Shown in pieces: positions 20,259 through 22,714 of a DNA stretch of 64,000 nt (positions are counted from its first letter, which is position 1; every line of letters starts with the position of its first letter). Position numbers and translations under genes: made by a program. This DNA is from Halobacteriovorax sp. Lineage in GTDB: Bacteria; Bdellovibrionota; Bacteriovoracia; Bacteriovoracales; Bacteriovoracaceae. The stretch lies in the NCBI GenBank assembly GCA_002720865.1, contig PBIO01000014.1, positions 1,177,793 to 1,241,792 of the forward strand, in the 5' to 3' direction. The notes under the pieces were generated by a model. That model had not been told where the DNA came from, made no database searches, and worked only from the letters and a program-made list of their open reading frames with translations.

Positions 20259-21506
20259 CTACGGAAGGATGATTACTTCTCCGCGGGCCTCTAAGTCTTT
20301 GAGAACACGGTAGTGACTTTCACTAAAGGAATCGAGGTCATTTTGCTTTATAGCTGGAAGTAGTTTCTTCTCTCTCATCTTAGCCAAATGCTTTTTTAAG
20401 AGAGTTGGGGTCTTGGAGACTAATTCGTCTGGGCTTAGAACAACAGTGTTAGAGCTGTTCATCGTAGAGCTAAGATATTCTTGGAAACCTTTTCTTCCGT
20501 TTTTCCCCGTTAGGACCACATGGTCACCCTTTCTTAGCTTTGACCTAAGATGGCTTATGGCCCGTTTTTTATTACCGTCAAACTTTGCTAGAAGCTCAGG
20601 CCAATTGACCATTCTTAAATTTAAATATTGGGATGAGCTTGGGTTATAAGAGCCGTCTTCAAAAGCTAAGACATTCTTTCTAAAAAAGAGATCTTTTCCT
20701 GTTAGGGATTTTCCCGTTGGATCAAAAATAACAAAATCCGCAAATTTCTTATCGACGAGATCTACAGTAGGGATACCTACCTTTCTCATTCCCTTTGACC
20801 ACTCTATACTATCAAGTGAAATAGTTTTCTTTTTTACTCCATCCAGTAAAGATTCAATAAGGTCGTCACCAGCGGGAATCTTCTGACCTGAAAAAAGATA
20901 GTGAATGAGATTAACTCCAAGTTTACCTAGCTCAGAATGTTGCTGTTCTAAACTTGTCTTACCAAAATTAAGATGAATTTTTATTTCCTGAAATGCGCCC
21001 CTGGGGTTTCCAAGGTCTGCAAACTTTATCCCTAGCCAACCATGTCCTGAACCGTCGACATTAGAAGTGACAGTATTTGCAATTGAAAAAACTTTTACAC
21101 CTCTTTTATATTCACTTTTATGTTCTAAAATGGTGGTAAATTCTTTTTCTAGCATTTGATCTAATCGTTGTTCGCTAACGTAACGAACTCCGCCTCCGTA
21201 AAGACGATCAGACTCCTCTTTGCCATAAGCTGAGATAGTTTTTACTACGGTCTCACTTGCTCTTTTGGCTTCAAAGAATTTAGCTGAAATTCCTTGACCA
21301 GCCCCGATTTCAGCAAAGCTTCCTTTAACGGAACCTTCCATATCATTTATGGACCTGGCCTTTTGGACAGGTGAGAGCTTTCGTGAATTTCTTAGAATGA
21401 CCTCGACACTTTCCGTGCAAGAGATCTGACTTGCGGGCAGGCGTGAGCTCTGATGGGCACAGGAAATTAAACTAAAAAATAGACTTAGATAAACGATGAC
21501 TCTCAC
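20259..21506 (-). CDS. Lipoprotein form of a large uncharacterised bacterial family
   Basis: Protein of 415 residues if it starts at the GTG at 21506. That start gives a lipoprotein signal (VRVIVYLSLFFSLISCAHQS) with lipobox LISC; a longer in-frame form lacks this. The body has a strong family look: SFAEIGAGQGISAKFF near the N-terminus, then VKTISAYGKEESDRLYGGG, GHGWLGIKFADLGNP and GKLGVNLIHYLF. I recall these features from a widespread family often labelled nicotinate-nucleotide adenylyltransferase or TonB-dependent receptor in databases. Neither label fits visible motifs, so I treat the function as unknown. A lipid anchor would place it in the envelope. Confidence 0.6.
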   Translation of the reverse strand: MRVIVYLSLFFSLISCAHQSSRLPASQISCTESVEVILRNSRKLSPVQKARSINDMEGSVKGSFAEIGAGQGISAKFFEAKRASETVVKTISAYGKEESDRLYGGGVRYVSEQRLDQMLEKEFTTILEHKSEYKRGVKVFSIANTVTSNVDGSGHGWLGIKFADLGNPRGAFQEIKIHLNFGKTSLEQQHSELGKLGVNLIHYLFSGQKIPAGDDLIESLLDGVKKKTISLDSIEWSKGMRKVGIPTVDLVDKKFADFVIFDPTGKSLTGKDLFFRKNVLAFEDGSYNPSSSQYLNLRMVNWPELLAKFDGNKKRAISHLRSKLRKGDHVVLTGKNGRKGFQEYLSSTMNSSNTVVLSPDELVSKTPTLLKKHLAKMREKKLLPAIKQNDLDSFSESHYRVLKDLEARGEVIILP

Positions 21507-21632
21507 GTTTAACTTTTCGGTAAATGGGCTGATTTGTTTAGTATGAGAGTAATTTAGTCGGAAAGGTGAGGCGCCGACCCCCCGACGCCTCAACAAAGCA
21601 AAAATCCCCTAAATGCGAACCATTCGGTTCAA

Positions 21633-21915: not shown

Positions 21916-21925
21916 GAAAGGTTTA
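21916..21925. repeat. Left copy of 10-bp target-site duplication
   Basis: GAAAGGTTTA here and at 22153-22162. One extra T (21926) separates this copy from the left inverted repeat, so an 11-bp duplication with one mismatch is the alternative reading. Confidence 0.6.
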
Positions 21926-21926
21926 T

Positions 21927-21964
21927 AAACTGACCTACTTGAATGGTGATGAAAAAAGCCAGGT
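21927..21964 (+). repeat. Left terminal inverted repeat of MITE-like element
   Basis: The arm begins AAACTGACCTACT, continues with ATGGTGATGAA at arm positions 17-27, and ends GCCAGGT. The reverse complement of 22115-22152 matches 33 of 38 positions; the five differences are at arm positions 14-16, 28 and 31. Confidence 0.75.
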
Positions 21965-22114
21965 AAGCAAGGAGCTAACAGTTTTTGGTGGTCACTCTAA
22001 GTTTTATCGACGCGCTATAGGGAAGCTGGTTTCTTTTTAGATCAAAATCAGTCCAGTGGGGTTCAAACCTCTATAAATCATCAATTCTAAAGAGATCTTT
22101 GAGTTCGGTTTGAG

Positions 22115-22152
22115 ACCTGGCATTATTCATCACCATGGTAGTAGGTCAGTTT
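22115..22152 (-). repeat. Right terminal inverted repeat of MITE-like element
   Basis: On the minus strand this arm begins AAACTGACCTACT and ends GCCAGGT like the left arm. Its last base abuts the right copy of the direct repeat. Confidence 0.75.
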
Positions 22153-22162
22153 GAAAGGTTTA
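22153..22162. repeat. Right copy of 10-bp target-site duplication
   Basis: GAAAGGTTTA, directly adjacent to the right inverted repeat. Its last three bases are the TAA stop of the minus-strand NADAR gene. Confidence 0.6.
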
Positions 22163-22714
22163 GAGCTTACCGGCCTTAATCTTCTCTCTGATATCAACGA
22201 GCATTATACCTAGTTTGTTTAGACCTGAGCCATCCCCAGCGTCTCCCCAGTACTTATCTCTTTTCGTATGCTCAATGATTGGAGCATTGCCTGTAGAAAG
22301 CAAAAGCTCCTTTAGGTTTTGATGTTGTGTATATTTGGCCACGAGGGCCTTGTACATAATCTGATCTTTAACTTCCTTCCAGTTACCTCTTTTTGGGTAA
22401 TTCTTGTCACGACCACGCTTTGCAGCCTCCTCGGGAGAACCTGCTTGGCGAACGTATTCCTGGAGTTCTTTTTTATCGTATTTATGGGCCTGGTAGTAAT
22501 GTTCACTTGTGCCCCAAAGTTTTCCGTCAACCTTGATAGGGAAAAGAGCAAAATTGGAAAATTCACCATAAGGGTTTTTACGACTATAGAACTTAACTGG
22601 AGAGTTATCTTTGTTCTGAACGATTGGGGTCCAAGTTTTTCCTACTGGTACGTCTCCCGTGCTTGCACAAGAGCCAATGATCAGAGAAATCACGCCTGCT
22701 ATTAGAAATTCCAT
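22160..22714 (-). CDS. NADAR-domain enzyme with lipoprotein signal
   Basis: Protein of 184 residues. The NADAR (YbiA/DUF1768) domain spans about residues 38-180: KFYSRKNPYGEFSNFA, then WGTSEHYYQAHKY, then LLLSTGNAPIIEHTKRDKYWG and DGSGLNKLGIMLVDIRE. NADAR enzymes are N-glycosidases acting on riboflavin-pathway intermediates or on ADP-ribosylated guanine. The oddity is the N-terminus, MEFLIAGVISLIIGSCAS, which has a hydrophobic helix and a lipobox-like IIGSC, so the enzyme may be exported and lipid-anchored. GAGGT precedes the ATG with normal spacing, supporting this start. Immediately downstream is the MITE-like element. Confidence 0.85.
   Translation of the reverse strand: MEFLIAGVISLIIGSCASTGDVPVGKTWTPIVQNKDNSPVKFYSRKNPYGEFSNFALFPIKVDGKLWGTSEHYYQAHKYDKKELQEYVRQAGSPEEAAKRGRDKNYPKRGNWKEVKDQIMYKALVAKYTQHQNLKELLLSTGNAPIIEHTKRDKYWGDAGDGSGLNKLGIMLVDIREKIKAGKL

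Follow-up and report, generated by a model that had tools for sequence, protein, structure and literature searches.

Based on our analysis of a window of 64,000 nucleotides of Halobacteriovorax sp. DNA (the whole stretch under study), we propose that a MITE and an insertion sequence (IS) that shares its ends and resides in the same genome duplicate ~10 bp of target DNA and insert at the stop codons of genes, a reading to which we assign a probability of roughly 0.82. The 226-bp element in the window is a MITE. Such elements are common and this one is ordinary of its kind; it is the insertion rule that is out of the ordinary. The element and its surroundings are arranged as follows.

21916..21925, no strand: left copy of the target duplication, 10 bp, GAAAGGTTTA
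21926: extra base T between the left duplication and the MITE
21927..22152, no strand: MITE, 226 bp, one of several copies in the genome that share their ends
21927..21964, + strand: left terminal inverted repeat, resembling the IS right end (ACTTG..TGGTGAT)
21965..22114, no strand: gene-free MITE interior, matched by no IS interior examined
22115..22152, - strand: right terminal inverted repeat, resembling the IS left end (ACTACC.TGGTGATGAA)
22153..22162, no strand: GAAAGGTTTA, right copy of the duplicated target, ending in the NADAR stop codon (final three bases)
22160-22714, - strand: NADAR-domain gene, 184 aa (PF08719, E 4e-34)

The first-pass annotation, made from the window alone, had described an inverted-repeat element with arms of 38 bp, and these lie exactly where it placed them: the arms measure 38 nt each and are complementary at 33 of 38 positions (87%). 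Its description of the element holds, with the length corrected from 227 to 226 bp and the spacer from 151 to 150 nt. The limits are AAACTG at the start and CAGTTT at the end. The direct repeats claimed on both flanks are likewise present, and the match extends to 11 of 11 bases if the T preceding each copy is included. No open reading frame of at least 60 aa lies inside the 226 bp. A stable RNA fold is predicted on both strands. The fold z-score of -6.7 (none of 200 shuffles equally stable), together with the recurrence of the element in the genome (best E down to 1.8e-86), shows that it is not a product of chance. The TAA stop of the NADAR gene (22162-22160) falls within the right direct repeat, as had been noted, and the end region of the gene is matched, without the element, in a genome of the same genus, G001. 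The accompanying remark that one gene had survived insertion proved too narrow, as retention of the stop is the rule for the MITE and for much of the IS group.

Searching G000, the genome from which the window is taken (4.9 Mb in 33 contigs), with the MITE returned eight copies or derivatives. Five are full copies: the one in the window, those on contigs C31 (at 349 kb), C32 (at 2.8 kb) and C14 (at 641 kb), and a fifth divided between contigs C8 and C11, each of which starts with a part of it, the two parts overlapping exactly by 78 bp. A further copy on C14 (at 735 kb) has decayed ends, and two derivatives of 162 and 52 bp carry internal deletions. Pairwise identity is ~78-98% and the duplications vary between copies (TGAAAGGTTTA, TAAAATCTTA, TAAAAGAGGTTA, GACTATTTA, TACATAATT and others), which is the outcome that the first-pass annotation had named as support when it suggested searching the genome with the arm. 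In the 52-bp remnant, on C31 at ~133.8 kb (L208), the left arm is joined to the right arm; on one side of the remnant lies a stop codon, on the other a terminator-like hairpin (GGCCCCGGTAAACGAGGCC-TTTT).

The same annotation had also proposed looking for the empty site in a close relative. Insertions are missing from G001 at all three loci compared, and these vacant sites show that the insertions are real. At the NADAR locus the G001 region is free of the element and the gene ends close to the same point, with 29 additional bases separating the stop from the left flank; at the 641-kb locus on C14 the flanks, once joined, give a gapless alignment to G001; and the G001 site corresponding to the 349-kb copy on C31 holds no element. 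Multiple copies, shared ends, differing duplications and empty sites are thus all in evidence, and the annotation of the element as a MITE stands. Bacterial MITEs such as Correia/NEMIS, RUP and YPAL/RU-2 are short, non-coding elements with terminal inverted repeats and a target duplication that are mobilised in trans (PMC2229807). The window element is like them in being short and non-coding, with terminal inverted repeats and a target duplication, and differs from them, in a comparison of features rather than of sequence, in its ~10-bp duplication and its stop-codon target.

The genome also holds a likely source of the transposase. Sixteen contig ends bear MITE-like terminal repeats but continue into other interior sequence, eight of them of the type AAACTGACCTACWACCGTGGTGAT... 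and eight of the type AAACTGACCTACTTGGGTGGTGAT..., which we take for the two ends, left and right, of a single IS present in nearly identical copies that interrupted the assembly. By common ~10-bp direct repeats, 14 of the 16 ends pair into seven insertions (for example TTAATCAATTAT, C5 end with C26 end; AGTTAAGTTTTA, C20 end with C28 end; TTTAGATCATTA, C14 end with C32 end); the seven pairs are clear, one of the seven having one mismatch, and the ends on C18 and C31 are unmatched. The left end of the MITE resembles the right end of the IS, and the right end of the MITE its left end, over ~28 bp; a contig search with an exact 27-base end pattern gave zero matches. The longest left-end contig includes the beginning of a zinc-ribbon protein, so that in G000 the IS is known from its ends and the start of its transposase, with the interior unassembled, and full-length relatives of ~290-305 aa are found in other genomes. 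A transposase-bearing element with the terminal repeats of the MITE, as the first-pass annotation had anticipated, is therefore present. We infer that this transposase would move the non-autonomous MITE in trans.

What kind of enzyme is this transposase? The named genomes contain 258 stretches encoding it, and of 369 genomes examined in the phylum 136 have the family; among the 80 matches listed, most belong to Bacteriovoracaceae, Halobacteriovorax and Bdellovibrionales, with some in Granulosicoccus and Fibrobacteria, and none of the plasmid records carries it. The delimited IS elements are mostly 1.0-1.2 kb long, with inverted repeats that mostly begin ACTG[ACG]CC. The zinc-ribbon cysteines are conserved, and D119/D120, D198 and E231 are invariant and putatively catalytic. 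The predicted structure (pLDDT 83) comprises a zinc ribbon, a helical region and an RNase-H-like core, which with the conserved D, D and E makes the protein a transposase of DDE type in the broad sense. Its best match among solved structures is the transposase of ISCth4 (IS256 family), and retroviral integrases also match the fold. Given the low TM-score of 0.38 by query and the 12% identity, the likeness to ISCth4 reflects a shared RNase-H-like fold rather than IS256 membership. No Pfam family spans the group, which yields scattered weak matches such as DDE_Tnp_IS1595 (3 of 32 proteins; best E 0.002). The NCBIfam IS1 model finds all 32 transposases remotely, through the zinc ribbon and a portion of the core; the scores printed, 33.8, 34.6 and 37.1 bits, lie far under the curated cutoff of 100 for the IS1 family. 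IS1 makes a duplication of 8-9 bp, as against ~10 bp for the partner IS, which is encoded in a single frame of ~290 aa. The IS is poorly described; a name for its group may already exist.

Insertions are associated with stop codons. In G000, every one of the 13 insertions that show a clear duplication has a native stop no more than 9 bp from the centre of its target (for the window copy, the NADAR stop inside the repeat), as do 7 of 9 such sites in the relatives; the counts refer to reconstructed empty sites and to stops of frames of at least 100 codons, genes here being long open frames rather than curated ones. Such a near-stop zone covers ~1.7% of genome positions and ~7% of non-coding positions. 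Many targets are the junction of two convergent genes whose stops overlap. Because the element end (TAAACTG) can itself make a stop, we also counted stops lying wholly in host DNA, using 89 non-redundant elements with 174 flanks. Of these stops, 47 fall in the 14-bp zone at the junction, where zones of the same length farther out average 1.6, a 29-fold excess for stops within 16 bp (Poisson p ~1e-50, with the flanks treated as independent), and there is a single-base peak at -9. Start codons show no peak at the junction, and in a small control set of seven IS4/IS5-type elements of the phylum none of the 14 flanks lies near a stop. Of 78 classified sites, 25 seemed to lie inside an open frame once the flanks were joined; none of the 25 has a clear duplication, which leaves the joined frame unreliable, and they were counted neither for nor against. 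Copies in distant relatives mostly have no clear duplications, and the empty sites there are uncertain.

We suggest the following mechanism. The transposase of the co-resident IS would mobilise the MITE, and insertion duplicates ~10 bp at a degenerate palindrome of the form ~TAA-N3-TTA. In the aligned duplications this motif is weak, marked by an A (position 3) and two Ts (positions 8 and 9), and it presents a stop codon whichever strand is read; a plain TTAA target was rejected, TTAA being found in only 9 of 22 defined targets. Insertions occur where this palindrome contains the actual stop codon of a gene, often the stops of two convergent genes, and since the stop lies in or beside the duplicated bases the gene retains a stop and remains undamaged. 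In its fullest form, which we rate at about even odds, the proposal is that the transposase group actively picks gene 3' ends, recognising the two-way stop palindrome together with some further feature of gene ends, while the duplication keeps or restores the stop.

Selection offers the most serious competing account: MITE and IS would be ordinary elements weakly drawn to A+T-rich targets, and their insertions at stops simply the survivors, those in genes, promoters and terminators having been lost. We hold this to be a real, if somewhat doubtful, possibility. Selection against insertions into genes and promoters surely acts, and it could yield part of the association; in a genome that is mostly coding, loss of intragenic insertions is expected, the motif at the target is A+T-rich as well as weak, and the over-representation of TAA among junction stops fits a sequence preference. 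Yet TAG and TGA are targeted as well, and of 19 insertions in intergenic intervals of at least 40 bp, 13 are no farther than 12 bp from the stop, where uniform placement predicts 2.6. Nor is the motif sufficient for the association, since non-coding positions scoring at least as high are near a stop in only 13-16% of cases, and a stop is overlapped by only 8.5% of the TTAA sites that lie outside the interiors of coding regions. The weak motif accounts for only a share of the association, and purifying selection may account for more of it. On the whole we infer an active preference beyond selection, which seems somewhat more likely than selection alone.

Two other accounts concern the element itself. 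It is improbable that a different transposase moves the MITE, the IS with matching ends being merely a cousin: the MITE interior indeed matches none of the IS interiors examined and the similarity is confined to ~28 bp per end, but those outer bases are nearly identical down to end-specific differences, and MITE and IS agree in duplication length and type of target. Less credible still is an immobile structured RNA or regulatory hairpin serving this gene, whether terminator-like or mRNA-stabilising. The very stable fold on both strands and the location immediately 3' of a stop codon would suit such a hairpin; however, copies stand at several unrelated genes with differing direct repeats, an Rfam scan of the region gave nothing above the gathering score, and a terminator-like tail is absent. 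An RNA conserved at one position, which the first-pass annotation had put forward as the alternative, is refuted by the absence of the element from the same site in G001. A secondary role of the inserted hairpin in transcript ends is possible.

What are the implications of insertion at stop codons? Landing on stops and duplicating their bases would allow the elements to multiply at little cost to genes; they seem to have a harmless landing place, and low-damage insertion would help to account for their persistence in compact predatory-bacterial genomes. If the preference is active, the transposase would be a compact enzyme that inserts DNA directly behind genes, and the ~290-aa protein would encode general safe-harbour targeting at many sites. 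Tn7 inserts behind glmS, a safe landing site, through a dedicated targeting protein for that one site. IS1272 has inverted-repeat targets and replaces inverted repeats (PMC5678879). The present elements resemble Tn7 and IS1272 in inserting where little harm is done, and differ from the one site of the former and the inverted repeats of the latter in using many unrelated gene ends with a ~10-bp duplication. Searches of the open-licence literature found no paper describing an IS that targets stop codons.

Some further observations concern the neighbouring genes and a related genome. The open frame adjoining the element on its other side (445 aa, 20259-21596, - strand) has no Pfam match at E 0.001. 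The NADAR protein begins with a lipoprotein-like signal (MEFLIAGVISLIIGSCAS), from which it may be predicted to be exported, unusual for a domain of ADP-ribose chemistry. In G016, a genome of the same family, a second MITE family of <200 bp occurs at two loci (L052 and L055), with shared AAACTGACCTACTT ends, ~10-bp duplications and an unrelated interior.
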